Positions 24,213 through 43,852 of a DNA stretch of 64,000 nucleotides are shown here, one piece after another. The notes beneath the pieces are model-generated. The model was not told where the DNA came from. It was given only the letters and a program-made list of their open reading frames with translations, and searched no databases. Both the position numbers and the translations under genes were made by a program. Each line of letters opens with the position of its first letter. Position 1 is the first letter of the stretch. Origin of the DNA: Nitrosococcus halophilus Nc 4 (lineage in GTDB: Bacteria; Pseudomonadota; Gammaproteobacteria; Nitrosococcales; Nitrosococcaceae); NCBI RefSeq assembly GCF_000024725.1, contig NC_013960.1, forward strand, positions 3,396,001-3,460,000, written 5' to 3'.

Positions 24213-25208
24213 ATGGTTAAAATAGACAAATATTACGTAGCTAATAAAAAAACTTCTCATACTCATTTACCAAATTTCTTTATTGTTGGGGCGGCTAAGG
24301 GAGGAACAACATCTCTACATCAATATCTTTCTAAACACCCTGAAGTTTATATGTCCCCAATAAAGGAAACTAACTTCTTTTCTCAAGCCGACATAAAAAA
24401 AGAGTTTTTCAACAAAGAATATAAACTTGATATAAACTTTGATCTGGAAAAGTACTTATCTAAGCAGGAAAGAGAAAACATTCATATAGCTAATATAGAA
24501 AAATGGGATGATTACATTAGGTTATTTAAAAATGTATCAAATGAAAAAGCAATAGGGGAATCAAGCAACTCTTATCTTTTCTGCCCTTCTGCAGCAAAGG
24601 CAATAAAAGAAAAAATTCCTAACCCAAAGATAATTATTATTCTTAGAAACCCTATTGATCGGGCATTTTCCCATTATCTAATGAATCGAAGGCTTGGAAA
24701 AACACTTAATGAAGATTTTATTAGAGAATTAGAATATGACTACTATAAAAAAACAAAGGGATGGGGAGTAAGCCGATTATACCTTGAACTAGGATTATAT
24801 CACCAACAAGTAAAAAGATTTATTGATACATTCTCTAATAAACAAATAAAGATAATCATTTATGATGATTATAAAACAAATTCAAGAGAAACACTTAATC
24901 AACTTTGTTATTTTTTAAAAATAACAACTAATATAATCGATATTAATTTATCAAAAGAACACAACAAAGCAAGTTTGCCAAGATTTAAATATATTAATTA
25001 TATCTTAACCCAAATGGGTATAATAAATTTTTTAAAGAAAAATCTTTCTCATAATATAAAAAACAATCTTCAGAAAGCATTATATTCAAATAAAAAATTG
25101 CCAAAGTTAAACCAATATGAAAAAGAATTTTTGACAGATTTTTATAAAAAAGATATAGAAAAACTTTCTAATTTATTAAACAAAGATCTTTCTTTTTGGC
25201 TTAAATAA
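24213..25208 (+). CDS. Sulfotransferase on the opposite strand (EPS sulfotransferase 3)
   Basis: The 331-residue PAPS-dependent sulfotransferase has a 5'-PAPS loop FFIVGAAKGGTTSLHQYL near residue 22, then SPIKETNFFS, and a 3'-PAPS site IIIILRNPIDRAFSHYL near 150. AGGAAA sits 6 nt before the ATG. It is the only plus-strand gene of the EPS locus and is strikingly AT-rich (many Lys, Asn, Ile codons ending in A or T), unlike the glycosyltransferases further right. That suggests separate acquisition. Its own promoter must lie in the AT-rich 23973-24212 gap. Confidence 0.9.
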   Translation: MVKIDKYYVANKKTSHTHLPNFFIVGAAKGGTTSLHQYLSKHPEVYMSPIKETNFFSQADIKKEFFNKEYKLDINFDLEKYLSKQERENIHIANIEKWDDYIRLFKNVSNEKAIGESSNSYLFCPSAAKAIKEKIPNPKIIIILRNPIDRAFSHYLMNRRLGKTLNEDFIRELEYDYYKKTKGWGVSRLYLELGLYHQQVKRFIDTFSNKQIKIIIYDDYKTNSRETLNQLCYFLKITTNIIDINLSKEHNKASLPRFKYINYILTQMGIINFLKKNLSHNIKNNLQKALYSNKKLPKLNQYEKEFLTDFYKKDIEKLSNLLNKDLSFWLK

Positions 25209-25284: not shown

Positions 25285-26100
25285 TTATAGTGACCAGCTT
25301 GAAAAGCTAAGGCCGGAATATGCCCTTAATTTTTCAATATCTGGACTCAAGTGCTCTATAAGTATATTTCTATTTTCTGTAGAAATAACGGGTGGTTCAA
25401 TTAATCCTTTTTTTTTAGGCAACAGGGGTAAAAGAAAGGTTAACACTTTTCTTGCTTTGGCATTCTTAATATACCTGCTTGCATACAAAACAATCGAAGG
25501 TCTTCGCAATTTTTCACTAGATTGATGAAAATGTTTTTCAAAAAAATGGCTATGAAAACATAAATCAGCACCAATAAACTCTAAAATAATGTTGATGACT
25601 TTATCCGTATTTTTCCTTAATTCTTCTGATTCAATCAGAAGAATATTTTCACTTGAAAAACGCTCAATAAAAACCTGAAGTTGATAAAAGTACTTGCTAG
25701 TTAATATATAATTATTATTAGGTTTAGTTATAGCCTCTATAAATGAACTACGTTCCCTCCGGTGAGAATAACTATGAATATAATGTGATACTATTCTTTC
25801 AATCGGATCACGCAGAAGATATATTAATTTAACCCTAGGCAGAACAGCATACATCCGCTCTGGAACTCCTGGAAAGAGATGTCGTTTTGTATAATTAGGA
25901 GAGGCTTCACCAAGTATTTTGGCTTTTTTATCAAATAAATTCTTATACCATTCAATTCCTTTTGCATAATCTTCATTTGTCCTAAAAAAGTCAGTTTCTT
26001 TAATAGAAGACATCCCTATATCTGGGTGTTTATCGAGGTAATGATATAAACTGCTCGTTCCTCCTTTCATAGTGCCAATAATAATAAAGGCTGGCAGCAT
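25285..26100 (-). CDS. PAPS-dependent sulfotransferase (EPS sulfotransferase 4)
   Basis: The 271-residue enzyme starts directly with its 5'-PAPS loop (FIIIGTMKGGTSSLYHYL) followed by SSIKETDFFRT. The 3'-PAPS site KLIYLLRDPIERIVSHYIHS is near residue 95. The ATG follows the stop codon of the polymerase gene without any gap (TAG-ATG), with GGATAGG as a possible ribosome binding site inside the upstream gene. Polymerase and sulfotransferase are therefore translationally coupled. This ties sulfation closely to polymer assembly. Confidence 0.9.
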   Translation of the reverse strand: MLPAFIIIGTMKGGTSSLYHYLDKHPDIGMSSIKETDFFRTNEDYAKGIEWYKNLFDKKAKILGEASPNYTKRHLFPGVPERMYAVLPRVKLIYLLRDPIERIVSHYIHSYSHRRERSSFIEAITKPNNNYILTSKYFYQLQVFIERFSSENILLIESEELRKNTDKVINIILEFIGADLCFHSHFFEKHFHQSSEKLRRPSIVLYASRYIKNAKARKVLTFLLPLLPKKKGLIEPPVISTENRNILIEHLSPDIEKLRAYSGLSFSSWSL

Positions 26101-27381
26101 CTACCTATCCTCCTTATTGCTAGCAACCGGTAGTTCCTTAGAATCATATTTTGTGCTCTGGACCTGTACTTCACCTTGTGTAGCATTAACCAAAGATGCC
26201 CAAATTATACACAACAATACGATTCCCCGTGTAATTGTAAGAGTACCAATAGTAACCATGATAAGTAAAACATAGGTAAAATAATACCAGGCAAAATTTA
26301 TAATTTGAGGATCTCCTCCTAAGTTTTTAATCTTCCAAGCATATAAATAAAACCCTATAATTAATATAGTTATTAATACTATGCCAGGAAATCCAAAAAA
26401 TTTAACCCAAGTCCAATAACCTAAATCTGTATTTAAAGCAACATCTAGCAGAGAACCTAGCGATGCCCACCCTGGTATATGACTTCCGCGTATTACAAGA
26501 CCCCCACTACCTGTCCAAAAGTTTTCTAATACTATATCAAATGATGCTCTAATCTGTTGTAAACGCCCTTCCCAGGTACCTTCTTCTTGAGCTATATCTA
26601 TATAAGCCGTATAAAATACATTAAGCAATAAATTCTGATCAGTTGTAAATTCAAGTAATATAATTAAAATTAGAGAAAACAAACCAAAACCAACCAAAAC
26701 TTTAAAATGTCTTCTAGCTATAAGAATTAAAACAAGTGTTACAGTAACCCCTAAAATAAAAATACGACTTTGACGAAATAAAATACCACTAAATATTATC
26801 AAAAACATTAATAGCGAATGCGTAAATATTTTTTTTTCATCGAGATATTTTATAAATTCCCAAATAGCACCAAAAGGCAAAATTACCATAGCAGGGATAT
26901 AGGCCCGAACAATTCCAGAACGAACACCATGTCCATCAGCCCAACGATGATAAAATAAAGTTGGGCCAAAATAATTAACTATAGAAATAAAGATTAATAT
27001 TACTGATACTATAGATAAAATATTTAGAAATTTTTTAATCTTTCTAACATCATTAAGAGCAAATAAAGATAAAGGAAATAATAAATAATAAAATTGATCT
27101 CTGGCAGCAATAAGACCATCAAAAATTGATTGAGAATAATTGAAAGACGCAACTGAGACTTGTACTAACAAAAGGACCAAATAAAGAAAAATATACCAGG
27201 TAAAAAAATTAGATAAGCGACTAAAATCTTTTACCTTAAAAATATAAAATAAAATACCTAAACCGATCAGAGCAATACCTACATCTGATACATTGAATAC
27301 GCCGGGAATATGTGTCCAAGGCACTAAATCAAAGAGATCATTTGCCATTGCAATAATTAATAATAAATAAGCATATCTCAT
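26101..27381 (-). CDS. Wzy/O-antigen-ligase-like polymerase
   Basis: The 426-residue membrane protein has about 10-11 hydrophobic helices and a large periplasmic loop near residues 250-320 (FWTGSGGLVIRGSHIPGW). It resembles the Wzy_C/O-antigen ligase family. It should polymerise flipped repeat units in the periplasm. It is the only polymerase-like gene seen in the window. DNA is AT-rich, as usual for Wzy. It is directly coupled to the following sulfotransferase gene. Confidence 0.82.
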   Translation of the reverse strand: MRYAYLLLIIAMANDLFDLVPWTHIPGVFNVSDVGIALIGLGILFYIFKVKDFSRLSNFFTWYIFLYLVLLLVQVSVASFNYSQSIFDGLIAARDQFYYLLFPLSLFALNDVRKIKKFLNILSIVSVILIFISIVNYFGPTLFYHRWADGHGVRSGIVRAYIPAMVILPFGAIWEFIKYLDEKKIFTHSLLMFLIIFSGILFRQSRIFILGVTVTLVLILIARRHFKVLVGFGLFSLILIILLEFTTDQNLLLNVFYTAYIDIAQEEGTWEGRLQQIRASFDIVLENFWTGSGGLVIRGSHIPGWASLGSLLDVALNTDLGYWTWVKFFGFPGIVLITILIIGFYLYAWKIKNLGGDPQIINFAWYYFTYVLLIMVTIGTLTITRGIVLLCIIWASLVNATQGEVQVQSTKYDSKELPVASNKEDR

Positions 27382-29553: not shown

Positions 29554-31149
29554 TTAATCACTTCCAGATTTAAGAGATGCTTTCAAGATTGATGTATCTT
29601 TTTGACATGACCAAACACTTATGCGGTTTACGATATGAGTTTTTCCCCACAAACGATTTTCAACTGATCGAAGAATTTCCAAATCATTTGAACTCATACT
29701 TCTGGTTACTATTGGAGATAACAATGCTAAAAGCCCTATCAAGAAAAACAATAATAAATGTAAAAGTTCATTCATTATTACATAAGACAATTTTAAAATC
29801 ATAACACACAATATGCTAGCAAAAATTGTGAAAATCACAGGTTTTACATACTCTGCCCTAAAAGGATGAATACCAAATAATTTATATAAGTAAAAAGAAA
29901 CAAATATATTTGTAACTAAACGAGCAGCAGCAGTTCCCAATGCAGCTCCTAAAGCCCCATAGTATGGAACTAATACTAAGCAAAGGGTCATTATAGATAT
30001 CGCACCTAAAATAGTTGCAATAAATACGATACGGGTATTTCCGTAACTAATTAGTGTCATACCATTAGGGCCAAGCAAGCTATGGATAGCAAACCCAATT
30101 GTTAATACCCTTAATACATTTGCTGTATCATGGTATTTCTCACCAAAAAGGTATCCTACAATGAATTCTGCATCAGTCAAGAAATATAACAATAATGGCA
30201 GGGTAACAATAAAAGCCCATTTAGTTGTAGCTATATACAATAATTCTAGGGTATTACGATCTCCAAGAGACTTTCCTTCAACTATCTTGGTAGCTATCGG
30301 AAGGTATAAGAAAACCAATGCCGCTAGAGGAATGGGAATTATACTGACTAAACGCAATGGCGCATTAAAAAATGCCACTTCTTCTGCAGAAGCCAAATAC
30401 CCCAGAGTTAATGTCCCTCCCCATCCCATCAAGTTTGACATGAGGCTAGTACCTAACAGTGGCATAGAAAAAGATAAGAGTTGTAGGGAAAGTACTCCAC
30501 TAACTACAAGACGAAATCGGCTGATAAAATTATAACTCATATATAGAAGATATAGGCTTAAAACAACCCATATGGATCCAACATAGGCCCATAAAATCCA
30601 TTTAAATTCTAAGCTTAAAAAAATTATTGGCACCAGAAGTAGCATTCGGATTAAATTAGCGCCGATATCTGTAAATAAAACTTTTGCTTTTGGATTTTCT
30701 ATTCCGCGAAATATAGCTGTAAAAACCTCTACTAAAACGGTGGCTGGAATCATTAAAGAAAATATTTCTAATACTTGCTTTAATCCCGGCTTTTGAAAGT
30801 AATCTGCTAAATATGGTGCACAAAAATATAAAAAGGTTGCACATGAAAGACTTATCCAAAGAGAAATAAAAAGAGATGTACCTGCCACTGCACCTACCAA
30901 CTCGTTATTCTTTTTTCCATGATGCCTGGCAATAAATTGAGGTATACCCGTGCCAAGCCCAAGAATAGAAAAGAGTGCCAAAAGTGCTACTGATGTAAAC
31001 CCAAGGGATACTAATCCATATTCTTCTGGTGATAAAAAACGGATAATAATAATACCAGTAGCAAGGTGTAATAATTTAGCAAGGAGAGTACCTATTGAAA
31101 ACAGCACACCTCCTCGTACTACTCTTTTGAAACTATTCTCGGCGTTCAT
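29554..31149 (-). CDS. Wzx-type polysaccharide flippase 2
   Basis: The 531-residue protein has about 14 hydrophobic helices and N-terminal motifs of MOP-type flippases (GGVLFSIGTLLAKLLHLA, IIIRFLSPEEYGLVSLGF). A soluble C-terminal tail of about 50 residues follows the last helix. It should translocate lipid-linked repeat units. The ATG overlaps the stop of the sulfotransferase upstream (ATGA), so the two are translationally coupled. It differs clearly from flippase 1 at 10538-12052. Confidence 0.88.
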   Translation of the reverse strand: MNAENSFKRVVRGGVLFSIGTLLAKLLHLATGIIIIRFLSPEEYGLVSLGFTSVALLALFSILGLGTGIPQFIARHHGKKNNELVGAVAGTSLFISLWISLSCATFLYFCAPYLADYFQKPGLKQVLEIFSLMIPATVLVEVFTAIFRGIENPKAKVLFTDIGANLIRMLLLVPIIFLSLEFKWILWAYVGSIWVVLSLYLLYMSYNFISRFRLVVSGVLSLQLLSFSMPLLGTSLMSNLMGWGGTLTLGYLASAEEVAFFNAPLRLVSIIPIPLAALVFLYLPIATKIVEGKSLGDRNTLELLYIATTKWAFIVTLPLLLYFLTDAEFIVGYLFGEKYHDTANVLRVLTIGFAIHSLLGPNGMTLISYGNTRIVFIATILGAISIMTLCLVLVPYYGALGAALGTAAARLVTNIFVSFYLYKLFGIHPFRAEYVKPVIFTIFASILCVMILKLSYVIMNELLHLLLFFLIGLLALLSPIVTRSMSSNDLEILRSVENRLWGKTHIVNRISVWSCQKDTSILKASLKSGSD

Positions 31150-32051
31150 CCGTTTTCTTTTCCATCTTTTATTATATAGTTCCAGTGGCTTAAATCACGG
31201 TTTATAAACCTTGAAAGTCGGTTGTTCTCTTCTAAAAATAGCTCAGAAAGATGCTGATACATATAATCACTCAAACTCATTTTATGCTGATTTTTTTGAT
31301 TAAATCCAAGTAGCTTTTTACGTAGTTTATGGCGTAATTTTTTTTTAGGAATCAATAACCGTATAATTTTTTTTTCAGGACCATTCCCTTTTATGCGACG
31401 CAACAAAGTCATACTACGTGGTGCTGTCGCTTTATGAAATTGTTTATTTATATTTTGAGGTAAAAAATCCTGAGAAACTTCCAAAAAATTAAAAATTATT
31501 TTTAAACAGTCTAAAGTATTCTCTCTGAGATCTTCAGTTAACAAAAATAGCATTTTTGATCTATCAACATACATAAGAAATTTTTCAACTTGTCGCAAAT
31601 AGAATCCGCGATTTGTATAGCTATAATGTATGTTAGACATGATTCCTTGAGAAATACGACTTGGCTCTGCTGATATAGCCTCTTCAAACGTGAGCGGCTC
31701 CAGCCCACGCCTATAAGTCATTAAGTAGTGAGAAAATGCACGCTCAACAGGATTTCTAAATATAAAAATAAGCTTTAAACTACTAGGGTTAAAATGTTTT
31801 ATTATGCGCTCCAGAGCTTGTTCAATATACATATACTCTGGATCGACTTCTCCTACAGCTAGCTCATGATCCCAACCAGAGAAGTATTCTGCTTCATAGT
31901 AATGAATTCCCCTATTATAAAATCTTTCATGCACAAAAAATTTACTCTCTTTTTGAAATGGCAAGTAAATTTCTGGGTGTGCACGAAGATAATGATGTAG
32001 GGATGTAGTGCCTGATTTTTGTGCTCCGACAACAAAGAAATTTGGTAGCAT
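31146..32051 (-). CDS. PAPS-dependent sulfotransferase (EPS sulfotransferase 5)
   Basis: The 301-residue enzyme has a 5'-PAPS loop at the extreme N-terminus (FFVVGAQKSGTTSLHHYL) followed by PFQKESKFF. The 3'-PAPS site LIFIFRNPVERAFSHYL is near residue 98, and the C-terminal half is basic. Its last codons overlap the flippase start by 4 nt. It belongs to the same subgroup as the enzymes at 5970, 24213 and 25285, but with distinct sequence, so duplication would be old. Confidence 0.9.
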   Translation of the reverse strand: MLPNFFVVGAQKSGTTSLHHYLRAHPEIYLPFQKESKFFVHERFYNRGIHYYEAEYFSGWDHELAVGEVDPEYMYIEQALERIIKHFNPSSLKLIFIFRNPVERAFSHYLMTYRRGLEPLTFEEAISAEPSRISQGIMSNIHYSYTNRGFYLRQVEKFLMYVDRSKMLFLLTEDLRENTLDCLKIIFNFLEVSQDFLPQNINKQFHKATAPRSMTLLRRIKGNGPEKKIIRLLIPKKKLRHKLRKKLLGFNQKNQHKMSLSDYMYQHLSELFLEENNRLSRFINRDLSHWNYIIKDGKENG

Positions 32052-32954: not shown

Positions 32955-33893
32955 TTAATTAATAATTTCATAGACCGTATATTCCTTGAGTTCTTTAGCA
33001 TGGGTAAAAATTATTATTTCTCCAATAAGCCCAATTGCCATTACCTGTATACTAAAAACAATTAGTAGAGAAGAAAGAAGTAATGCTGGACGGTTGGCAA
33101 GACTCACTCCTAAAAAAAGGCGCTCTCCAACAATATAAAGGGTAGCAATTAATCCTATAAAAAATATCCCAAGCCCTAAAAGACCAAAAAATCGTAGAGG
33201 TTTTTTTGTAAATTTAATTAAGAAGAAAATGGTAAGGATATCTAGCAAAGTACGCAAATACGCGCTAGTGCTATAAATACGCCGGGAAATATCCCTATCT
33301 GACTGTGCTACATTTAACTCTACTACCTTAAAACCATATCTATCGGCTATAATAGGAAAAAAACGATGCAAATCCCCATATACATGAACTTCATTAATTA
33401 CATCTCTCTTAAAAGCCCTGACATTACATCCCGCATCATGAATCTGCAAATCAGACACGCCCTTTAAAAGTAGGTTAAACAACTTAGAGCGAATGCGATT
33501 AAACCCAGAATCTTTCCGCGGCCACCTTCTTCCTACTACCATGTCATGGCTATCCAGCGCTTTTATTAAATAAGGTATCTCACTAGCCTGAACTTGTTGG
33601 TATGCAGGTAAAGTCAGGATTATATCTCCCGAGGAATTATCAAATCCGATATTTAAAGCAGTAGTTTCGCTAAAGGATTTAGCAAGCTTAATTATTTTAA
33701 TTCTCTCGCCTTTTTTATTTAACTTTTTCAGATTTTCTAATACTTCATCAAAATGGCTATCTACTATATAAACAATCTCAAAGGCCATATTAGTAGCCTT
33801 TATATTTTGTTTGTAGTCGTAATAGATTTCTTCAATATTATCATATCTGTCTGTCACAGGAATTATTACCGATAACTCAATACGACTACTCAC
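32955..33893 (-). CDS. GT2 glycosyltransferase, membrane-anchored
   Basis: The 312-residue protein has a family 2 catalytic domain (LSVIIPVTDRYDNIEEIYYD, NIGFDNSSGDIILTL) and two C-terminal transmembrane helices near residues 235-258 and 270-300, as in DPM1/ArnC/GtrB-type transferases. In place of the DxD motif it reads LTLPAYQQ, so catalytic competence is doubtful. The start is a GTG sharing one base with the stop of the upstream GT2 gene (TAGTG), so the two paralogues are coupled. It may work as a partner subunit of its neighbour. Confidence 0.8.
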   Translation of the reverse strand: MSSRIELSVIIPVTDRYDNIEEIYYDYKQNIKATNMAFEIVYIVDSHFDEVLENLKKLNKKGERIKIIKLAKSFSETTALNIGFDNSSGDIILTLPAYQQVQASEIPYLIKALDSHDMVVGRRWPRKDSGFNRIRSKLFNLLLKGVSDLQIHDAGCNVRAFKRDVINEVHVYGDLHRFFPIIADRYGFKVVELNVAQSDRDISRRIYSTSAYLRTLLDILTIFFLIKFTKKPLRFFGLLGLGIFFIGLIATLYIVGERLFLGVSLANRPALLLSSLLIVFSIQVMAIGLIGEIIIFTHAKELKEYTVYEIIN

Positions 33894-34852
33894 TATCTTT
33901 TCTCCATTTCACTATTTCGTGACATTTCGTTGTCGGCATTTAAATTAGCAAATATTTCTATTTTTAGGTTACCTGTTCTATATACCAACTCCGCAAGAAC
34001 ACCCCAAAACAAAAGCACAATAGCAAGACCACCATACAAAATAGTCAAGCCCCAGAAGACAATGCTCTCTTGACCAAATTGTAAGGTATGAAATATTCCT
34101 GAAATAAAAGAAAAAAAGCTAACCAATGCTGCAACTGCAGCTATTAAGGAAAATGGAACTAATGGGCGTGGAAAAAAAGAAATTATTGTTTTTATGGTAA
34201 TTAAGTCAATTAATACTTTATATATTCGTGACAGTCCATATTTAGAAATCCCATATTGTCGTGCATGGTGATTTACTTTAATTTCAGCAACACTAACTCC
34301 AGCTAAAGAGGCTATGGCTGGTATAAACCGATGCATTTCTGAATAAAGAGGAATATTTTTTATTATATCCCCCCGATAAGCCTTAAGTGAACAACCGTTA
34401 TCTTTAATCCGAACTCCTGTAATCTTTCCTATAAGCCAATTCGCAACCTTAGAAGGTATTTTTCTTGTTAACAATTTATCTTGCCTTTTGTAGCGCCAAC
34501 CTACAACAATGTCATACCCTTCCTTGATCTTGCCTATAAAGTTGGGGATATCTGCAGGATCATTTTGTAAATCACCATCCATAGTAATCAATATTGTACC
34601 CTTGGCATGCTCAATCCCCGCAACCATGGCAGGTGTCTGACCATAATTTCGGCGGAATTTAATTACTCTCAAAAGCTGATTATTTTTTGCGAGTTCTTTT
34701 GCTAAAGAGTAAGTTTTATCACGACTACCATCGTCAATGAATAATATTTCATAATTTAAATTAAGAGGGTTTAGAGTGTTAACAAGTGCTTTATATAGAG
34801 GTATTACGCTATCCTCTTCGTTATAGAGGGGCACTATAACAGAAAGATCCAT
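33893..34852 (-). CDS. GT2 glycosyltransferase, polyprenyl-phosphate sugar synthase type
   Basis: The 319-residue enzyme has LSVIVPLYNEEDSVIPLYKA, the donor site LFIDDGSRDKT, MDGDLQNDPADI as the metal motif and RYKRQDKLLTRKIPS. Two C-terminal transmembrane helices follow. This is the GtrB/ArnC-like layout, which makes undecaprenyl-phosphate-linked monosaccharides. The GT39 protein encoded just upstream would be the natural user of such a donor. The downstream GT2 gene overlaps by one base. Confidence 0.88.
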   Translation of the reverse strand: MDLSVIVPLYNEEDSVIPLYKALVNTLNPLNLNYEILFIDDGSRDKTYSLAKELAKNNQLLRVIKFRRNYGQTPAMVAGIEHAKGTILITMDGDLQNDPADIPNFIGKIKEGYDIVVGWRYKRQDKLLTRKIPSKVANWLIGKITGVRIKDNGCSLKAYRGDIIKNIPLYSEMHRFIPAIASLAGVSVAEIKVNHHARQYGISKYGLSRIYKVLIDLITIKTIISFFPRPLVPFSLIAAVAALVSFFSFISGIFHTLQFGQESIVFWGLTILYGGLAIVLLFWGVLAELVYRTGNLKIEIFANLNADNEMSRNSEMEKR

Positions 34853-34952: not shown

Positions 34953-36386
34953 TCAGGGTATAGAAGAGATCTTTTTCGAGGAGTTCACCAGATATATTTC
35001 ATATCCTCTAACTGCATAGTCAATTCTTTGTTCATATTTACGCCACACTAATAAGGCATTATGCATTAGCCAGGATTCCAGTTCTTTAGTATAGGGAGCA
35101 CGAAAGGTTTCCAGAATAATCCACATGCGCTCTGCCTTCTCTGTATACAGTTGGAGCTCTTCTTTCCATGCCACTTTGCTAACGCGTGGACTGCCGGGCC
35201 TAGGTACCATATAGAATTTGCCTTCCGCATAATGTGTAAATTCCCAGGGAAAAGCCAAGACTATATCATTAGGGCGATAGGTTTTCTCCACAAATTCGAC
35301 TGCCTCCCGGACATCTAAGCTTTTCCTACCTGTATAGTGAGAAATCGTTTCAGGGAGTAAAAGAATAATTAGCATAATGGCAAATGCATAAGATGCTACT
35401 CCGTAATTTGATAGAGCTTGCCTTGCTTGCTCACACAAGTAGGCAGCAAGTATTAACAGTAAAGGAAAAGAATAAAACATATAAACAGATCGAGAGTTCA
35501 AGAAATTTGCACAGACAAGCACAAAGATGATAGGTATACCAATGCCCATCATAAAAAACAGTCCTTTAAACATGTCCTTTCGTAATAGAAAAAACATACC
35601 AAAGAACGCACTAACAGCAATAGGTAACTGTATATGCCTCGTAATCTGCAGGATCATTTCTCCCGCTCCATCACCCCAGGTTGCACCACCTGCACGTTCC
35701 ATACGGCTTACGGCAATCTGCCATAGAAATGACAACGAAATTAAGCCGGCTAGCGAACAAATTGCGATATGAGTGGCCGCAATTCGTCTTGAATAGCCGG
35801 CCTTTATCCCCTTTCTAGAAAACATAATAAGAAGAGAGAAGAGCGCACATGAGGCAGGCACCATAACCGAGGTCAGATGAAATGAAATAGCGGCTATATT
35901 AGCCAGTATTGCCCATACTAGATATCGCAGACTATCCGATCGTATCGCCTGATAGTAAAAATAATAAGAGAGAGAGCCAAATAAAAAAGCGCCTGTATAG
36001 AAACGGCTAAATTGTGAGTACCACAAATGCCAACTGCTAAAAATGATGAATAATGCCCCGAGCAGGGCCACATTACGGCCCAGTACATTCCGCCAGGTTA
36101 GATAGAAAATAGGAACACTCAATACGCCAAGCAACATAGCAGGTAAGCGGGCCGACCATTCGCTAACACCGAATAGATTAAAGCTACCTACCACCAAGGT
36201 ATAATAGGCTGGATTGATTAATGAAGTATACCGCTCATTTGCCGCGTGCACCGTAGAATACTCATCATGAACAAGAGGCCACTCTGATAAGCCATAGCTT
36301 CTAGTAACCAACGCAAAAAATGTTAGGGCTAGGAGTACTATCCAATCAAAGTTCTTTATCCTAACATCTTCCAATGTATTCCACAT
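34953..36386 (-). CDS. GT39-family (ArnT/PMT-like) membrane glycosyltransferase
   Basis: The 477-residue protein has about 11-12 transmembrane helices. The first periplasmic loop carries the acidic catalytic motif of this fold (WPLVHDEYSTVHAANERY). The segment FIIFSSWHLWYSQFSRFYT is also typical of the dolichyl-phosphate-mannose and ArnT-type transferases. These enzymes take sugars from a polyprenyl-phosphate donor in the periplasm. Pairing with the GtrB-like GT2 genes downstream suggests a module decorating the EPS or a lipid with a side-chain sugar. Confidence 0.85.
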   Translation of the reverse strand: MWNTLEDVRIKNFDWIVLLALTFFALVTRSYGLSEWPLVHDEYSTVHAANERYTSLINPAYYTLVVGSFNLFGVSEWSARLPAMLLGVLSVPIFYLTWRNVLGRNVALLGALFIIFSSWHLWYSQFSRFYTGAFLFGSLSYYFYYQAIRSDSLRYLVWAILANIAAISFHLTSVMVPASCALFSLLIMFSRKGIKAGYSRRIAATHIAICSLAGLISLSFLWQIAVSRMERAGGATWGDGAGEMILQITRHIQLPIAVSAFFGMFFLLRKDMFKGLFFMMGIGIPIIFVLVCANFLNSRSVYMFYSFPLLLILAAYLCEQARQALSNYGVASYAFAIMLIILLLPETISHYTGRKSLDVREAVEFVEKTYRPNDIVLAFPWEFTHYAEGKFYMVPRPGSPRVSKVAWKEELQLYTEKAERMWIILETFRAPYTKELESWLMHNALLVWRKYEQRIDYAVRGYEIYLVNSSKKISSIP

Positions 36387-36477: not shown

Positions 36478-37239
36478 TTAACTAGTCAAACGAAGCTCTT
36501 GGTAAATTTTATCTACATGCCTAATAAAACGACACCAGTTAAACGCATCAGCCGCATAAACACGTGCGGCTCTTCCTATCCGAATTGCGAGATTATCGTC
36601 CAGTAATACACGTGTAATGCCAGACGTGAACCCTTCTATAGTGGGATCAACTAATACAGCTCTTGTATCATCCAAAATTGTACGGTGAGCAGCAATATCA
36701 CTAGCAACAATTGGCCTACCCGATGCCATGTATTCCATAATTTTTAAGGGGGTATTGCTTCCATAAAGCCTAGGAGAAACCAATACATCAGCAAGTGCTA
36801 ATAAACAATTTACCTCTTCCCTTGGCAATCTGGGCATAATTCGGATCTGTGGACTTAGATCTTTTCTGGTGCACTGTCGAAAAGACCACTGTTCTTCTTC
36901 AGTTATGCCAATCAGGAAGAAAACAAGCTGAGGAAATTTTGATGTAATCCGCTGAGCGGCTTCAATAAGGTTATTGACACCTTGATACTTTGCAAATGAT
37001 CCAATATACATAACCACGCGGTTGGCATCGGATAGCTGCAACTTGCGCCGCATTTCTTTTATATATTCTAGAGCCGGTGTTTGTAAGGATATTGGAAAAA
37101 ACCATTCTGTGGTTCGTGCGCTAGGACATGATTTTTTTATATAAGTAGATAATCCAGCACTACATGCTATGTAATCTACATAAGAAAAAAGCTGTTTTTC
37201 TAAATATCTAAGTATTTTTTGACAAATCTTATTGCTAAA
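36478..37239 (-). pseudogene. GT4 glycosyltransferase, C-terminal part (frameshifted)
   Basis: This frame holds the nucleotide-sugar-binding domain: VMYIGSFAKYQGVNNLIEA, DVLVSPRLYGSNTPLKIMEYMASGRPIVASDI with the E-x7-type region, and a C-terminal helix. Open reading extends upstream of the first ATG (37053) to about 37239 with sensible sequence (QKILRYLEKQLFSYVDYIAC). That sequence continues the N-terminal half at 37200-37694 in the other frame. One missing base at the nine-base homopolymer 37237-37245 explains the break. Confidence 0.8.
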
Positions 37240-37694
37240 AAAAAAGAATGGGACAATTGCTCAGGCAATGAAGATGCCATATCGTAAACAACAAATACTT
37301 TTTTTCGCCTTGCAAGTAGAGCAACTGGAAAAGCCATTTCTTCCAGTACGTGAATGCACAAGTAATGATTATTGCGAAACTGTTTATAGAACAAAACAGT
37401 AAGCATTACATCAAGAAATATTTTTTTAAATGAGAAACCAATTGGTATAGATTTAAATCCAAATGGATTTGGAATTCTTAAAATTTTAACGGAAGGAAGT
37501 TCAATTTTTTCTCCGATTGGATATGTAATTAAATCTACTTTATAGCCTAACTGGCCGAGCGCAACTAAAATATGACGTACAGCTATCGGCGTTCCCCTTT
37601 CTTCATAGAATGGTTGGGGTGAAACGAGAAGTACTCGCTTATGTTGAGTTATATAAGTTGCATGATTAGTTTTTTGAATAGGGGGTTTTTTCAT
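37200..37694 (-). pseudogene. GT4 glycosyltransferase, N-terminal part (frameshifted)
   Basis: This frame encodes the N-terminal acceptor domain of the GT4 enzyme: VLLVSPQPFYEERGTPIAVR, then GYKVDLITYPIGE, HYLCIHVLEEMAFPVALL and FVVYDMASSLPEQL. It reaches a stop shortly after the T9 tract (minus strand). Its beginning overlaps the end of the nucleotidyltransferase gene by 29 nt. Adding one T restores a single frame of about 405 codons with the 36478-37239 part, a normal GT4 length. Confidence 0.8.
37237..37245. repeat. A9/T9 homopolymer at the frameshift of the GT4 gene
   Basis: Nine consecutive A on the plus strand (T9 in the mRNA sense) lie exactly where the GT4 frame breaks. Ten T would read SFFFSNKICQKIL and join both halves. 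Such tracts are prone to slippage, so this may be a phase-variable switch, a mutation or a sequencing error. Confidence 0.6.
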
Positions 37695-38766
37695 AAATTT
37701 TTTTACGTTCCCATTTCAGCCTTGTTAACAACATACCTGCTTGAGAAGCTTTCCCAAGAAAACTTTCTTGTAGAAAAAAATGCAGCTGCATTCTATAGAA
37801 AAAACCATTTTTTTTTCCATTTTTTATAGCTGCAACACGATATACTGTTTGTAATACACTTTTTTCTATCCAGCTCTGCTCGCGCAACTCTTTGAAAATA
37901 AGAGCTGGGAGTTTTATATTTAGAAAGGCTTTTGTAAGAGCAAGCCCAAAATAAAGTATCCGACTGAGCCTACATAAAGCAGCTTCATGTAAAATATAGG
38001 ACCAGTTAAATTGCTGATGGGAAATACTAAGTAAGGCCGCAATATCGCATAGCTTGTTTAACGTCAAGCGATCTTCCCAAGCATCTTTGGAAACTTGAAC
38101 ACATAAAACCATGAGGTTATGCTCAGGACAAAAAGTAACAATCTCTTCATCGGCTATTCGCACTCGGTGAGCATGCTCCCATAGATAATCAAAAAAAAGT
38201 GAAACGGGAAAAGTCCAAGGTGATAAGCTATAATGTAGATCTAATTCTTTTTTATCCTCTTTAGAAAACGTAATTTCCCAACCATATCGACTCGTAATTC
38301 GGTAATCTTTAGCAGCAATAATGTCCACTGTTTTTTTAATATCGCGTTTATCTATAAGAAGATCAAGATCTCCAAATTCGCGAAGGGAAAGGTTACCGTA
38401 GACACTCATAGCCAATAGTGGCCCTTTATAGGAAATAACCCGTATATTTTGCTTTCTGAATTCTTTATGCAGAAGAAGCAAATCGTGAGTACATTGAAGA
38501 TTATGGTAAGCAATTACCCTGCGCCGTTCTGCTAGAGCCTTCAAGATATTGATCGGAACTACAGACTGATATTGACTAGCTATAACTTCATGCACCAATG
38601 GTGTTAAGGCATGAACTTGAGCATAATACAATAGCTTATCCCAATTTAGGCTTGATAAAAAAATGTCAGGGAGCCGGTATGAGAGAGCTTCCTGAAATTT
38701 TATTTTTACGCACCAAAGGACAGCTTGTAGTTCAGGACAGAGATATTGCGAATGGATATCTAGCAC
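37666..38766 (-). CDS. Nucleotidyltransferase-fold protein (NTP_transf_5 type)
   Basis: The 366-residue protein matches the uncharacterised nucleotidyltransferase family PF14907. It has an N-terminal helical part with WDKLLYYAQVHALTPLV, then VISYKGPLLAMSVYGNLSLREFGDLDLLID, where the G-D-L-D-L carries the two metal-binding Asp residues, and a later Asp-containing strand (ELDLHYSL). Members sit in EPS and peptide-natural-product loci next to PqqD-like proteins, as here. Reaction and substrate are unknown. It precedes the GT4 gene with a 29-nt overlap. Confidence 0.82.
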   Translation of the reverse strand: MLDIHSQYLCPELQAVLWCVKIKFQEALSYRLPDIFLSSLNWDKLLYYAQVHALTPLVHEVIASQYQSVVPINILKALAERRRVIAYHNLQCTHDLLLLHKEFRKQNIRVISYKGPLLAMSVYGNLSLREFGDLDLLIDKRDIKKTVDIIAAKDYRITSRYGWEITFSKEDKKELDLHYSLSPWTFPVSLFFDYLWEHAHRVRIADEEIVTFCPEHNLMVLCVQVSKDAWEDRLTLNKLCDIAALLSISHQQFNWSYILHEAALCRLSRILYFGLALTKAFLNIKLPALIFKELREQSWIEKSVLQTVYRVAAIKNGKKNGFFYRMQLHFFLQESFLGKASQAGMLLTRLKWERKKIYEKTPYSKN

Positions 38767-38820
38767 CCTTAATTTAGGTATAGTAAAATGAGTAGTATTT
38801 TACTAATAAAATAGTGATTA

Positions 38821-39078
38821 CTAGAAAACTTGCTCTACTTCTAGAAGGCCTTGATCCCATAAGCTTATGATCATCTGCATGACGTCCTCTTCCGGTTGCC
38901 CCAAACACCTTATAATTTCGGCAATACTCCGCTGACCATTACAAGCATTCCATATTTCCGTAGCTGTTGGATTAAGTAGAAAGCACCTTTCACTCCTAAG
39001 GCAGTACACTAGCATCTCATCTAATATTCTGCATTCTAAAGTGCGCTTATTTCTTTGTGGTATTCTCCAAACAAGCAC
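38821..39078 (-). CDS. PqqD-like small protein
   Basis: The 85-residue protein has the PqqD fold pattern: strands at MLVWRIPQRN and RILDEMLVYCL, FLLNPTATEIWNACNGQRSI with the conserved Asn/Trp, then the winged helix IAEIIRCLGQPEEDVMQMI. PqqD-like proteins bind leader peptides of RiPP precursors, but stand-alone versions also occur in EPS loci with NTP_transf_5 proteins. No precursor peptide or radical SAM gene is seen nearby. It lies 54 nt upstream of the nucleotidyltransferase gene. Confidence 0.8.
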   Translation of the reverse strand: MLVWRIPQRNKRTLECRILDEMLVYCLRSERCFLLNPTATEIWNACNGQRSIAEIIRCLGQPEEDVMQMIISLWDQGLLEVEQVF

Positions 39079-39228: not shown

Positions 39229-40035
39229 TTAATAATAACTGGGTCCATATCCCATTATTTTCTCCTTAGATTTATTAAGCACGGTTCCAAGTAGATTTGT
39301 ATCTTTTAGCAATTCAGCTGAGCGGGCAAGCTCTTCATGAGTTACAGCCCCATCCTCAATAACCAGCAAAATTGAATCTAAAAGAGGAGAAAAAGCTATA
39401 ACGTCATCAGTGGAAAGTAACGGTGGTAAGTCAAACACAACAATCCTCGAAGAATAGCGAGTTTTAGCTTCTTCTACTAAAGTTGCCATCTTTGGCGAAC
39501 GTAAATACCCTGAGGAATTTTGGAGTGGCTTTCTCACTGGTAAAGTGACTAAGTTTCCAATTGCCACATGGATAAGGGTATCTTTGATTGGGGTATCACC
39601 TACCAAGTAATCGTTCAACCCCTTCTCTAGTGCATAACCAAAGTATTTATGAATAGCCGGCCGTTGTAGATCAGCATCGACAAGCAATACTGTGTGATTA
39701 CCCTCCATCGCCAAGCTAATACTTAGATTAATCGCTGTACGCGTTTTCCCTTCTCCAGCTATAGAACTAGTCACACCAAAAGTGTTCCAACCATTTTTTT
39801 GCAGGCGCTGCAAAACTGCGGTACGCAACATCTTATAGCTATTAACTTGCTCGGTATCACACAGTCCGGAAATAATTCGACGCTCATGAAGATGCTGCTC
39901 TGAAACAGTTTCTGTTCGGATCTGATCGTAGTTAACTTCTATCCGCTTAATAGCAGTTACTTTTGCTTTATGCGCATCTATATTCCTTTCTTGTTGGGCT
40001 TGTTGAACAGCCTTGGTAATATAATCAAGAGACAT
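39229..40035 (-). CDS. CpsD/CapB-family tyrosine kinase (BY-kinase)
   Basis: The 268-residue P-loop protein has Walker A (FGVTSSIAGEGKTRTAINLS), Walker A' (VLLVDADLQRP) and Walker B (IVVFDLPPLLSTDD), the set that defines bacterial tyrosine autokinases. The C-terminus has only a short Tyr cluster (GYGPSYY). It would work with the co-polymerase encoded 37 nt upstream, which provides the membrane part, to control polymer length and export through phosphorylation cycles. As in many Gram-negative EPS loci, kinase and Wzz domain are separate proteins. Confidence 0.9.
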   Translation of the reverse strand: MSLDYITKAVQQAQQERNIDAHKAKVTAIKRIEVNYDQIRTETVSEQHLHERRIISGLCDTEQVNSYKMLRTAVLQRLQKNGWNTFGVTSSIAGEGKTRTAINLSISLAMEGNHTVLLVDADLQRPAIHKYFGYALEKGLNDYLVGDTPIKDTLIHVAIGNLVTLPVRKPLQNSSGYLRSPKMATLVEEAKTRYSSRIVVFDLPPLLSTDDVIAFSPLLDSILLVIEDGAVTHEELARSAELLKDTNLLGTVLNKSKEKIMGYGPSYY

Positions 40036-40071: not shown

Positions 40072-41745
40072 CTACATATGGCGCACAAAATAGATAAAAG
40101 TGAACATCAGACCTATTCCAAGTAAAGCTATAAGCAAATAATAAATTCTAACCCTCCTCTGACGGCGGCGATCTTGGCTATTTTCGGTATAGGGAATGAT
40201 TCCTAAAGGAGGTGAGGTAAAAATTGTTTTTACTCCTCTAATACCGCGCACTTTTTGATCTAGATACTCAGTAAGGGCAACAAGTCCAACTCCGCTAGAG
40301 AACGAAAGCACTATTCCCAAAAAAAGAATTGCCGGACGATTGGGGCTAGAAGGCTCTTCTGCAAGTTGAGGTGGTGCAATCAAAACAAAGTGCTCTCCTT
40401 TACCTTCTTCTTCCATTTGGGTAGCTATTTGTGCATTCAGTTGCTTATCCTTAATTTCTTGATATTTTTTTACTGCATTCTCATAATTCCTCTTCAACTC
40501 CAGTGCTTTTTGCTCAACTTGCGGCATTTGTTGAATACGACGCTCTAGTTCATTTAGTTTCTTTTGAACTCTTACACGTTTACTTTTTTCAGATGCTAGC
40601 TGGATATCCACTGCATCAAGTTGAGCCTTGATGGAAATATATGCAGGATTATCTGGTTTTATTTGGCTTGTTTGTTCTGCCCCTTCTGGTATTTCTCTTA
40701 AAGCATCTTCAAGTGTAGCTACTTCATTTTTTAACCTAATAACATCTGGGTGCTGCTCAGAATATCTAGTACGTGCTTTTGCCAGCTCGTCTCGGGTAAA
40801 TACTAATTTTTCTATAAGTTTACTTTCTCCTTTCTCATTACCAATTTCATCTTTTAGTATTGCTATTTCTCGTTCTAGCCGAGCTATATCAGGGTGATTT
40901 GGGCTATACTTTGACGATGCATTAAATAACTCCATTTGTAATGTCTTTAAATGAGCCACAGGGCTCTCTCCACTATGTGGCTGTGTTTGTGACAACTGCG
41001 CAGCTAATGCAGTCCTCTGTTCTTTCAATTCTCGAATTGTTTTTTCTATCTCCTCGTACTGGTCCTCTACCCGTTCAAGTAGGCTCATGTTCAAACCCAT
41101 CATTTCTGGTAATCGGGCTACATTTTTTTCCTTAAATCTTGCATATTCAGCTTCTAACTTTGAAATCAAACTACTTAATCTTTGGGCTTCCTCTTCGAAG
41201 AATTTAGCAGATGAGTTTGCTTGTTGAATACGAAACTTTTTGTTGAGGTTCAAATAGAGTTCAACTAATTCCTTACCAATTATTTGCGCGCTCTTAGGAG
41301 AGCCGCTACTAACAAAAATATCAAAAGCAATAGTAACTGTACGGGACCTTCCCGTTCTTGGATCGGTTACCTCTGCATATACAGGCTCAACCCGGGTATT
41401 ATTTTTAATCCTCTTTACTACCTCTACTTCTTCATTGTAGCTACTATTTTTACTTAATAAATTGGCTTCCCGTGCTAATGCCTTTAACTGCTCAAAAGAC
41501 ATGATGTGCTGCTTGAGAGTAGCAATGCGCTCCGCTGCATAAGTTTGAACCGTAGACGATAAAAGTTCCTCCGGAATTTCCTGTTGTTCAACAAGTATTC
41601 TTGCTTTTGATTGATAAAGCGGCGGTAAGCCAAAAGCGATCCCTATGCTAATAAAAAAGACAACAGCACCTGGTATCAAAAATTGCATCTTGCGCCGGCG
41701 CAAGATCACAATAAGATCATTTAATTTGAAAGCGCTTTGATTCAT
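40072..41745 (-). CDS. Wzz/GumC-type polysaccharide co-polymerase
   Basis: The 557-residue protein has a Wzz domain with transmembrane helices near residues 23-43 and 530-552. A long periplasmic part between them is dominated by coiled coils (about 180-440, with repeated ARxRYSEQHPDVIRLKNE-type units) and a GNVR-like segment before the second helix. It sets chain length and links the inner-membrane polymerase with the outer-membrane exporter. No kinase domain follows the second helix; the separate BY-kinase gene downstream supplies it. Confidence 0.9.
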   Translation of the reverse strand: MNQSAFKLNDLIVILRRRKMQFLIPGAVVFFISIGIAFGLPPLYQSKARILVEQQEIPEELLSSTVQTYAAERIATLKQHIMSFEQLKALAREANLLSKNSSYNEEVEVVKRIKNNTRVEPVYAEVTDPRTGRSRTVTIAFDIFVSSGSPKSAQIIGKELVELYLNLNKKFRIQQANSSAKFFEEEAQRLSSLISKLEAEYARFKEKNVARLPEMMGLNMSLLERVEDQYEEIEKTIRELKEQRTALAAQLSQTQPHSGESPVAHLKTLQMELFNASSKYSPNHPDIARLEREIAILKDEIGNEKGESKLIEKLVFTRDELAKARTRYSEQHPDVIRLKNEVATLEDALREIPEGAEQTSQIKPDNPAYISIKAQLDAVDIQLASEKSKRVRVQKKLNELERRIQQMPQVEQKALELKRNYENAVKKYQEIKDKQLNAQIATQMEEEGKGEHFVLIAPPQLAEEPSSPNRPAILFLGIVLSFSSGVGLVALTEYLDQKVRGIRGVKTIFTSPPLGIIPYTENSQDRRRQRRVRIYYLLIALLGIGLMFTFIYFVRHM

Positions 41746-41984: not shown

Positions 41985-43202
41985 TTATCTTTCTATCAAC
42001 GGCGTATAGGTGATAGCAACAAATACGGCATTACTATTAGCAAATTCTGAAGGGCTTTCATTTTCTCTTCTGCGATAATGATATCCGACCTCCACAGCCC
42101 ACCACCGCGTCCAATTCCAAAGCAACCGTGGCTCCACGTCAAAATAGCGTCTTTCACCCTGAGAAAAGTCATCTTCAACGGATTCCGTGCGGAAAGCATC
42201 AGCTCTCAGAACAAAGCTGAGTCGGGGCATGATTGTTTGTGTATATTGAATACGAATTCGGTCAGTTTGGTTTGACCGACCATTTCCGCTAGGGGTAACT
42301 GTTCGACTAATGCTCCCCCTCAAAAGGCCTAACTCTGTAGAATATCGTATAACGAGTTTACCCACAAATCCGCTTGAAATTTCCTCCTCATCATTACTAC
42401 TAGCTGAGGTGATACGATAGCCAGCTCTCGCTTCACTCTGAAAAGTCTCCGAGAACAAATGGTTCCAACCCACTAAGGCTTCTAGGTTATCAGTTTCACT
42501 CTCATCTTCTGATGTTCTTCGCGTGGCATTTACATTCAAGCTCAGCGTGCTTATTGGTGTAAGCTCATAAAATCCTTTACCTGATAGAAGATGCTGCTGA
42601 GTATTAATAAGGTTAATCTCTTCACTTTCTGCGTATGATAGATCTGTAAAGCCATATCCTAATTGCACTGAAGTTCGTTCCGTCAATGCATACCGCCACG
42701 AAGGATTTATCTGGACTCGATTACGCCTTGTGCTAACATCTACAAGTCCAATATCAATATCCTCAATCGGCTCAAGGAAATCTTCATCTATTTCTATAAA
42801 TACTCTTCTCAAGAGAGTATCGCGCACATAGCTACCATTTAATTGAAAAAAAGATCTTTCAGTAAAATGAAGATGTGAGCGCAATCTTATCCGTTCTGAG
42901 TCTCTATCAGGAACATCAACGCCATTATAAATCTCATAATTTAATTTAGCGCCAAGGTTAACTTCCCATCGCTCCTCGCGCCGACCAATGAGCAGCCCTG
43001 GACTGACAGTAGTAATGAAACCAGCATCTTTTTGTTCAAATGATAACCTAGGATTATCGTTAAACTCCTCATTTAGTGAAAAGATCGGATCCAACCTCCA
43101 GCCGAAATATGTCCACTCAATCCCATATACCACTTCAGGAAAAAATAGGATTAATAACCATAGCAGAACCACATTAGTGTCCACCTGCCAAAACAGTCTC
43201 AT
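41985..43202 (-). CDS. Outer-membrane beta-barrel protein of the EPS export system
   Basis: The 405-residue protein has a signal peptide (hydrophobic LLWLLILFFPEVVYG ending near residue 27). About 16 amphipathic beta strands follow with alternating polar and aromatic residues, such as RWEVNLGAKLNYEIYNG and TSVQLGYGFTDLSYAESEE. It resembles the outer-membrane barrels found beside Wza-type and GumC-type genes in EPS loci, which may form the secretion pore where the export protein lacks one. It follows the export gene by 32 nt. No enzymatic motif was seen. Confidence 0.8.
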   Translation of the reverse strand: MRLFWQVDTNVVLLWLLILFFPEVVYGIEWTYFGWRLDPIFSLNEEFNDNPRLSFEQKDAGFITTVSPGLLIGRREERWEVNLGAKLNYEIYNGVDVPDRDSERIRLRSHLHFTERSFFQLNGSYVRDTLLRRVFIEIDEDFLEPIEDIDIGLVDVSTRRNRVQINPSWRYALTERTSVQLGYGFTDLSYAESEEINLINTQQHLLSGKGFYELTPISTLSLNVNATRRTSEDESETDNLEALVGWNHLFSETFQSEARAGYRITSASSNDEEEISSGFVGKLVIRYSTELGLLRGSISRTVTPSGNGRSNQTDRIRIQYTQTIMPRLSFVLRADAFRTESVEDDFSQGERRYFDVEPRLLWNWTRWWAVEVGYHYRRRENESPSEFANSNAVFVAITYTPLIER

Positions 43203-43234: not shown

Positions 43235-43852
43235 TTATGGCACAACAACCACATCGCCACTTCTTAATATAATGTTCTGATCTAAGTCTTCGCCGTCTTC
43301 CACCTCTCCATACTTAAAAGGCAATGCTTTTTGCCGGCCATTTTCACGCCGTAATATTTTTATTCCATTTTTAGAAGCATAAGGATTTAACCCGCCAGCC
43401 AATGTCAATGCCTGCAGAACATCTATATACCGGCCAATGGTAAATTCACCCGGATTATTTACCTTACCTAGCACATAAATCTTGTAGCCCGATACCATCT
43501 TTACCGAAACAGTGGCTACCGGCTCGGGGATGTACTTCTTGAGACGTTCAGTAATTTCCCGTTGGACTTCCTCCGTAGTCCGCCCCGCAACTTGTATATT
43601 ACCTATTAGGGGAAATGAAATTTTTCCATCAGGTCGTACTACGACTTCACGATCGAGTTCTTCTTCTTTCCAGACTGAGATATGGAGAACATCTTCTGGA
43701 CCAATGAGGTATTTCTCGCTCATACTGTGACCGGGCCTAGCGGCAAACAGGCTACTCGAGAGGCTTAAGAAAATCATTAGGATAACTAAATTAGGAACTT
43801 GTACTTTTCTTAGTAAGGTCAATAGTAACTTAGCGATTGTCTGCATCCCCAT
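43235..43852 (-). CDS. Wza-like polysaccharide export protein
   Basis: The 205-residue protein has an N-terminal hydrophobic signal (about residues 19-37), then the Poly_export domain (YLIGPEDVLHISVWKEEELD, VRPDGKISFPLIGNIQVAG). An SLBB domain follows (YKIYVLGKVNNPGEFTIGR, VLQALTLAGGLNPYA). It is much shorter than E. coli Wza (about 380 residues) and lacks a lipobox cysteine and the C-terminal outer-membrane helix. It is therefore probably a periplasmic ring that works with the barrel protein. It is the first gene of the export operon. Confidence 0.9.
   Translation of the reverse strand: MGMQTIAKLLLTLLRKVQVPNLVILMIFLSLSSSLFAARPGHSMSEKYLIGPEDVLHISVWKEEELDREVVVRPDGKISFPLIGNIQVAGRTTEEVQREITERLKKYIPEPVATVSVKMVSGYKIYVLGKVNNPGEFTIGRYIDVLQALTLAGGLNPYASKNGIKILRRENGRQKALPFKYGEVEDGEDLDQNIILRSGDVVVVP

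Follow-up and report, generated by a model that had tools for sequence, protein, structure and literature searches.

What would a stand-alone PqqD-like protein and a nucleotidyltransferase be doing together in an EPS operon? The question is raised by a 64-kb window, by which we mean the whole stretch of DNA analyzed (C2:3396001-3460000), from a host genome of 4.15 Mb in two contigs. Here, the open reading frame (ORF) of an 85-aa PqqD/RRE protein with a GTG start (38821..39078, minus strand; PF05402, 33.1 bits against a cut-off of 23.4) is followed, after a gap of 54 bases and on the same strand, by that of a 366-aa PF14907 (NTP_transf_5) protein (37666..38766; 213.5 bits, cut-off 31.2), whose match spans positions 2-249 of the 249-position profile. 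A sequence-only reading had set this pair in an EPS operon, with a BY-kinase on one side and glycosyltransferases on the other, and we found the placement to be exact, with both Pfam matches over their cut-offs.

The genes around the pair, all on the minus strand, are those of polysaccharide synthesis and export. Directly upstream lies a BY-kinase-type tyrosine autokinase (39229..40035), which matches two NCBIfam models, both under cut-off (TIGR03018, 167.7 bits against 230.65; TIGR01007, 95.3 against 108.05). Beyond it are a polysaccharide chain-length determinant of the Wzz/XrtA type (40072..41745; PF02706, 29.2 bits, cut-off 25.5; TIGR03007, 242.8 bits, below its cut-off of 278.85), an outer-membrane barrel protein (BBP2_2, TIGR03016-like; 41985..43202; PF10082, 30.1 bits, cut-off 23.7; TIGR03016, 74.7 bits, below 90.85), and a polysaccharide export protein (43235..43852; PF02563, 96.5 bits; TIGR03027, 150.6 bits, below 180). 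These four genes resemble those of XrtA/PEP-CTERM-type EPS operons; however, all of them score below the curated NCBIfam cut-offs, and the exosortase gene is located ~103 kb away. Downstream of the pair is a GT4 glycosyltransferase gene (36478-37694) divided by a frameshift into an N-terminal ORF (37200..37694; PF13439/PF13579 below cut-off), which shares 29 bases with the 3' end of the PF14907 gene, and a C-terminal ORF (36478..37053; PF00534, 86.1 bits); the copy in a congener is intact, encodes 405 aa, and matches the two frames by tblastn. The operon continues with a PMT_2-type membrane glycosyltransferase (34953..36386; PF13231, 38.1 bits), two GT2 glycosyltransferases (33893..34852 and 32955..33893; PF00535, 116.9 and 58.6 bits), a sulfotransferase (31146..32051; PF00685, 52.8 bits), a Wzx-type flippase (29554..31149; PF01943, 88.2 bits), and a Wzy-type polymerase/ligase (26101..27381; PF04932, 35.2 bits, cut-off 31.7). 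Sulfotransferase-like ORFs number four across the window (5970-6911, 24213-25208, 25285-26100, and 31146-32051; three detected by Pfam and 5970-6911 by a custom profile only), suggesting that the polysaccharide may be sulfated. A scan for promoter-like sites found none in the gap between the BY-kinase and PqqD genes, and it says little because its total of 8 sites was lower than the 26.4 obtained in shuffled sequences. We also considered whether the PF14907 protein primes EPS synthesis, given that an initiating sugar transferase is missing from the operon. This hint is weak, as PF02397 genes are present elsewhere in all four genus genomes, in the host ~44 kb from the pair.

The predicted structure of the PqqD protein points to peptide recognition. 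Its AlphaFold2 model (pLDDT 93) has an RRE fold, and the nearest solved folds are leader-peptide complexes of the lasso B1 proteins TbiB1 and TfuB1 (TM ~0.75). A profile built from the window PqqD and 24 relatives matches TbiB1 at 4e-25, a value that is mostly the relatives' signal. The window protein departs from these relatives at two near-invariant columns (C32, where they have Y, and A39, where they have G) and has a shorter stretch between its last helices; a plasmid search with it returned no match. The modeling supports a peptide-binding fold of the RRE type, with lasso B1 proteins as the nearest matches, and the role of the protein is likely recognition of a peptide or protein, in keeping with the protein carrier that the sequence-only reading had envisaged. 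The PqqD of PQQ biosynthesis has this fold in common, but a true PQQ role was rejected: the window protein scores 28.1 bits with TIGR03859, below the cut-off of 46, and a better PqqD is encoded elsewhere in the host. The host's third PqqD is a typical one (C2:3615926-3616114, L008 4927-5115; 70.3 bits) that probably belongs to a PQQ operon.

We then asked whether the two families occur together in other genomes. PF14907 is found in 86 genomes of a class sample of 369, and PqqD in at least 127. A Pfam PqqD lies within 10 kb of at least 34 of the 101 over-cut-off PF14907 places in this sample (three of the paired places are the host's own, and 12 under-cut-off PF14907 rows were kept out of the 101), whereas a rough estimate, which takes PqqD matches to occur approximately once per 7 Mb, puts the number expected by chance at about one at most. 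The co-occurrence is thus beyond chance. We also scored retrieved loci with custom profiles, which additionally detect weak PqqD proteins, and found both PqqD and HprK within 8 kb of PF14907 in 97 of 131 (45/54 from the class, 21/30 from contigs, and 31/47 from the phylum). Of 188 loci, 57 were dropped for flanks shorter than 5 kb on one side or both, which left the 131. The class loci were drawn from 80 of the 101 places over cut-off, the phylum loci are 60 among the matches listed, and the 48 contig loci, retrieved with a 4-row alignment, are biased towards two short patterns; the window PF14907 protein as a single query found no relative in the contig collection. PqqD without HprK within 8 kb was observed at only two of the 131 loci, L144 and, by our reading, L208, and in L208 an HprK gene is located just past the 8-kb limit. 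L144 (7706-13047, from a Chloroflexi MAG) is kinase-less and encodes a radical SAM enzyme, a signal-peptidase-like protein, PqqD, PF14907, and an ABC transporter, the peptidase and transporter being named by eye from sequence. An EPS export, chain-length, or BY-kinase profile match occurs within 8 kb at 19 of the 131 loci (5 class, 2 contigs, 12 phylum), a count in which the single-label BY-kinase rows L069, L082, and L117 may be ParA-like, as a match in L229, outside the 19, looked to be. A preference of PF14907 loci for EPS settings is suggested by these matches. The BY-kinase, AsnB, B2, and other profiles each started from a single seed and were iterated over the retrieved loci, and the AsnB profile also picks up ordinary asparagine synthases.

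The pairing takes several recurring forms. In one, PqqD, HprK, and PF14907 occur as a set, as in the congener locus L125, which passes the cut-offs of TIGR04352 and TIGR04353, the families designated HPr-rel-A. In another, homologs of all three accompany B2 and cyclase genes in lasso-type sets such as L151, in which the latter two pass NF033537 and NF033535. A further form includes a radical SAM enzyme, for example in L135, in L161, and in 9 of 47 phylum loci. Many of the gammaproteobacterial modules have beside them a gene whose product begins in a Tat-like manner, with RRxxLK and then a hydrophobic stretch. Among six-frame ORFs of the class, contig, and genus loci, this motif turned up in 56 of the 3951 that lie no more than 2 kb from a module and in 12 of the 3496 that lie beyond 4 kb; it had been picked with three peptides in view that count among the 56, and several of the 56 are plain noise. 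Modules such as those of L125 (6503-9900), L047, L056, L063, L068, L109, and L115 are flanked by genes for secreted-looking proteins that start RRxLLKGA..APVIMT or RRxFLKKAGKFAVYTPPA. Five flanking proteins (L125, L007, L061, L109, and L068) have no NCBIfam match, and those of L125 and L007 have no Pfam match either; we regard the secreted-looking proteins as candidate undescribed substrate families.

Experimental precedent for such a pairing comes from lasso peptides. PsmN, an enzyme of pseudomycoidin tailoring, is one that we take to be a member of PF14907. As described in two reviews (among PMC8498205, PMC7533575, and PMC9266682), the HprK-like kinase PsmK phosphorylates the C-terminal Ser of pseudomycoidin, and PsmN, annotated as a nucleotidyltransferase, is needed for the addition of one to two hexoses to that phosphate; in these reviews, the link between PsmN and the hexoses is an in vivo one, the direct chemistry of PsmN is left open, and an RRE, an HprK kinase, and a nucleotidyltransferase are enzymes of paeninodin-type lasso peptides. 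A 2026 study of linear polyphosphorylated peptides (LPP) describes clusters encoding an RRE, an HprK, an NTP transferase, a SipW-like peptidase, and a transporter, which in Bacilli are often co-localized with capsular polysaccharide loci, and reports that deletion of the NTP transferase gene in a test host led to no detectable product change (PMC13381572). Literature searches, mainly outside subscription journals, for PF14907, NTP_transf_5, HPr-rel-A, and HprK-related kinase found no paper, and neither did one for PqqD, a nucleotidyltransferase, and an exosortase together. Because published work describes RRE/HprK/nucleotidyltransferase systems, some in capsule loci, the pairing as such is already known. 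The sequence-only reading, which proposed an unknown modification step in EPS assembly or control, is partly supported: the pairing is real and non-random, and recognition of a peptide or protein is likely, but the pairing has precedent, and PqqD with PF14907 mostly occurs alongside an HprK-like kinase.

The window differs from each of these systems. With paeninodin-type lasso clusters (PsmK/PsmN) it has in common the RRE (B1) and the nucleotidyltransferase, but it is without the B2 protease, cyclase, and kinase, and a precursor was not found; lasso cluster membership was rejected on the absence of a B2 protease or lasso cyclase in the window with custom profiles. The adjacent PqqD and PF14907 genes are arranged as in HPr-rel-A sets, but the window PqqD has no TIGR04353 match up to E = 1, whereas the L125 PqqD scores 55.9 (cut-off 35), and a Tat-like substrate gene is absent beside the pair. 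Without a TIGR04353 match or an HprK-related kinase A in the locus, membership of HPr-rel-A was rejected as well. LPP clusters are like the window in having a discrete RRE and NTP transferase in or near polysaccharide loci; they also have an HprK kinase, a SipW-like peptidase, a transporter, and a precursor, and are mostly from Bacillota (PMC13381572). Custom profiles detected no HprK, lasso B2, lasso cyclase, radical SAM, or lasso-type ABC transporter among window ORFs of at least 55 aa, which bears out the earlier statement that a radical SAM enzyme is missing. No RiPP precursor was found in the window either. The Tat-like substrate motif has two matches across the whole window, one inside the PMT gene (35582) and one in a frame opposite another gene (46270), neither of which is a likely substrate. 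The precursor motif [YW]xxPx[LVIFA], searched between 38600 and 46000 with only frames that have a Shine-Dalgarno-like match listed, occurs in two nested plus-strand frames (38601-38777 and 38679-38777), both nearly all opposite the PF14907 gene. What is unusual in this EPS operon is the kinase-less form of the pair.

Where, then, might the kinase be? Two of four genus genomes contain the pair, and the congener copies lie in the same EPS operon with 92% (PqqD) and 90% (PF14907) identity. Matches to PF14907 and to TIGR04352 go together across the four genomes: the two that hold the EPS pair have both, and the other two have neither. The best match to the BY-kinase in the two genomes without the pair is 36%. 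Because no close BY-kinase is found there, the EPS operon as a whole is probably absent from these genomes, and the match between pair and HprK across the genus therefore says little and may reflect shared ancestry. At E ≤ 0.001, TIGR04352 matches a single place in the host, a PqqD-HprK fusion (kinase part, C2:1655752-1656306; 101.7 bits, below cut-off). It lies in a distant locus (L007 9215-12979, C2:1653214-1656978) in which the fusion is intact, a 109-aa Tat-like protein is encoded, and the PF14907 gene is split into two oppositely oriented parts beside two inverted IS copies that are 99.8-100% identical. This gene looks as if it was split by rearrangement between the inverted IS copies, and, as it is the sole other copy, the EPS operon holds the host's only intact PF14907. 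In the congener, the fusion gene (L246 1495-3555) comes straight after one for a PF02397 sugar-phosphate transferase and is ~58 kb distant from the EPS pair; by gene content this is an EPS-type setting, and no PF14907 gene lies beside the fusion. The congener's only other PF14907 gene is part of the full HPr-rel-A set (L125), and so the EPS copy is the only one left unassigned.

Based on these observations, we tentatively propose, as a reading that we hold to be possible and somewhat short of probable, that the pair supplies recognition and transfer in a phospho-glyco peptide-tailoring module of the paeninodin/HPr-rel-A kind, this half having been recruited into the EPS operon and the kinase left elsewhere. 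The PqqD (RRE) protein would hold a substrate, a peptide or protein, by a leader-like segment and present it to the PF14907 enzyme. An HprK-like kinase encoded in trans, for which the PqqD-HprK fusion is the host candidate, would phosphorylate the substrate, and the PF14907 enzyme would add to it a group that contains a sugar, taken from an activated donor, with the phosphate placed by the kinase as the most likely acceptor. Since the genes of the pair sit among EPS genes, the tagged product might be a secreted peptide or protein made with the polysaccharide, such as a matrix component, a primer, or a regulator. We infer the partnership in trans, the sugar transfer, the identity of the substrate, and the EPS link from these comparisons, and the distant-kinase pattern, seen in two related genomes only, fits a split module. 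Against it, the fusion kinase has a PqqD domain of its own and may be independent of the window PqqD. A quick tree with long branches places the window PF14907 outside the clade of the fusion-associated PF14907 proteins. Also counting against the proposal are the lack of a substrate among the matches in the window, the departures of the window PqqD from its relatives, the unchanged products after NTP transferase deletion in the LPP system, the unsettled chemistry of PsmN, and the stronger constraint on two non-EPS neighbors of the pair. The lack of a close BY-kinase in the pair-less genomes also lowers our confidence in the split-module reading.

An alternative that dispenses with the distant kinase is kinase-independent tailoring of a protein of the EPS machine, which would tune polymer length or export. 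The RRE would bind a segment of one of three neighbors, the export protein, the chain-length protein, or the BY-kinase, to which the PF14907 enzyme would attach a nucleotidyl or sugar-phosphate group. The gene order is suggestive: the operon reads kinase, RRE, PF14907, with the BY-kinase in the place that HprK takes in a Nitrospirae locus (L148), and a similar order with a radical SAM gene in between is seen in L135 and L161. The absence of HprK from the ORFs of the window and the existence of L144 as a second kinase-less RRE-PF14907 locus are also consistent with this alternative. However, lasso-type RREs bind leader peptides, and the sibling systems appear to use small secreted substrates, and we consider it unlikely.

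The structure of the PF14907 protein bears on a second alternative. Its model (pLDDT 89) has a nucleotidyltransferase fold with helical additions, and the best Foldseek match is LnuA (E, 5e-5). LnuA, ANT(2''), and MenT proteins are the best structural matches overall, with Z ~11-14 by VIA-align for the antibiotic nucleotidyltransferases and MenT versus 6.7-7.5 for FKRP; a search of solved structures with the PF14907 sequence profile gave no credible relative (one match, E 0.13). KG 114-115 and D133/D135 (DxD) of the nucleotidyltransferase site are invariant in a 35-row alignment, and D176 is shared by 90% or more of the rows in a 12-row alignment, the consensus of the 35-row alignment being E at that column. 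Given this fold and the retained active-site residues, the PF14907 enzyme is probably active. Might it then act on the glycan itself, putting on a phosphate-linked group as FKRP or LicD does, with PqqD only a partner or scaffold? The matches to FKRP agree with such a role, as do a few PF14907 loci beside EPS- or sugar-nucleotide-like genes in which PqqD is missing out to 8 kb (L098 and, on short contigs, L043 and L167). In L043 and L098, the genes beside PF14907 resemble, by eye, those of heptose/sugar-nucleotide synthesis, and in L098 the closest PqqD match is ~9 kb from the PF14907 gene. But Z values of ~7 are in the range of common folds and below those of the antibiotic nucleotidyltransferases and MenT, and the co-occurrence with PqqD points to a peptide step, which makes glycan modification distinctly unlikely.

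Finally, the pair could be a remnant of a peptide module whose kinase and substrate were lost, its genes carried along in the operon. The missing kinase, protease, and precursor would be expected of a remnant, and IS elements lie near the pair, next to which the GT4 gene is frameshifted. However, neither gene has internal stops, catalytic residues are kept, and the pair is intact in two species. Comparison with the congener gives omega values of 0.18 for PqqD and 0.22 for PF14907, in the range of six EPS neighbors (0.14-0.25), although two non-EPS neighbors are more constrained (0.04 and 0.08). With omega values like those of the EPS neighbors, both genes look to be kept by selection, which lowers the standing of the remnant reading; we consider it very doubtful. 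Least probable of all is that the BY-kinase replaces HprK, such that a phosphotyrosine on the EPS kinase, the chain-length protein, or a peptide phosphorylated by that kinase would be the acceptor for a phosphate-linked sugar built by RRE-guided PF14907; if this were true, the EPS machine would be controlled or primed by RiPP-style glycosylation.

The reading of the pair as the transfer half of a split module suggests that a peptide or protein may be sugar-tagged as part of polysaccharide making or control. As a kinase-less RRE and transferase kept in an EPS operon of two species, the pair would represent a reduced case in which to study a link between peptide tailoring and polysaccharide.
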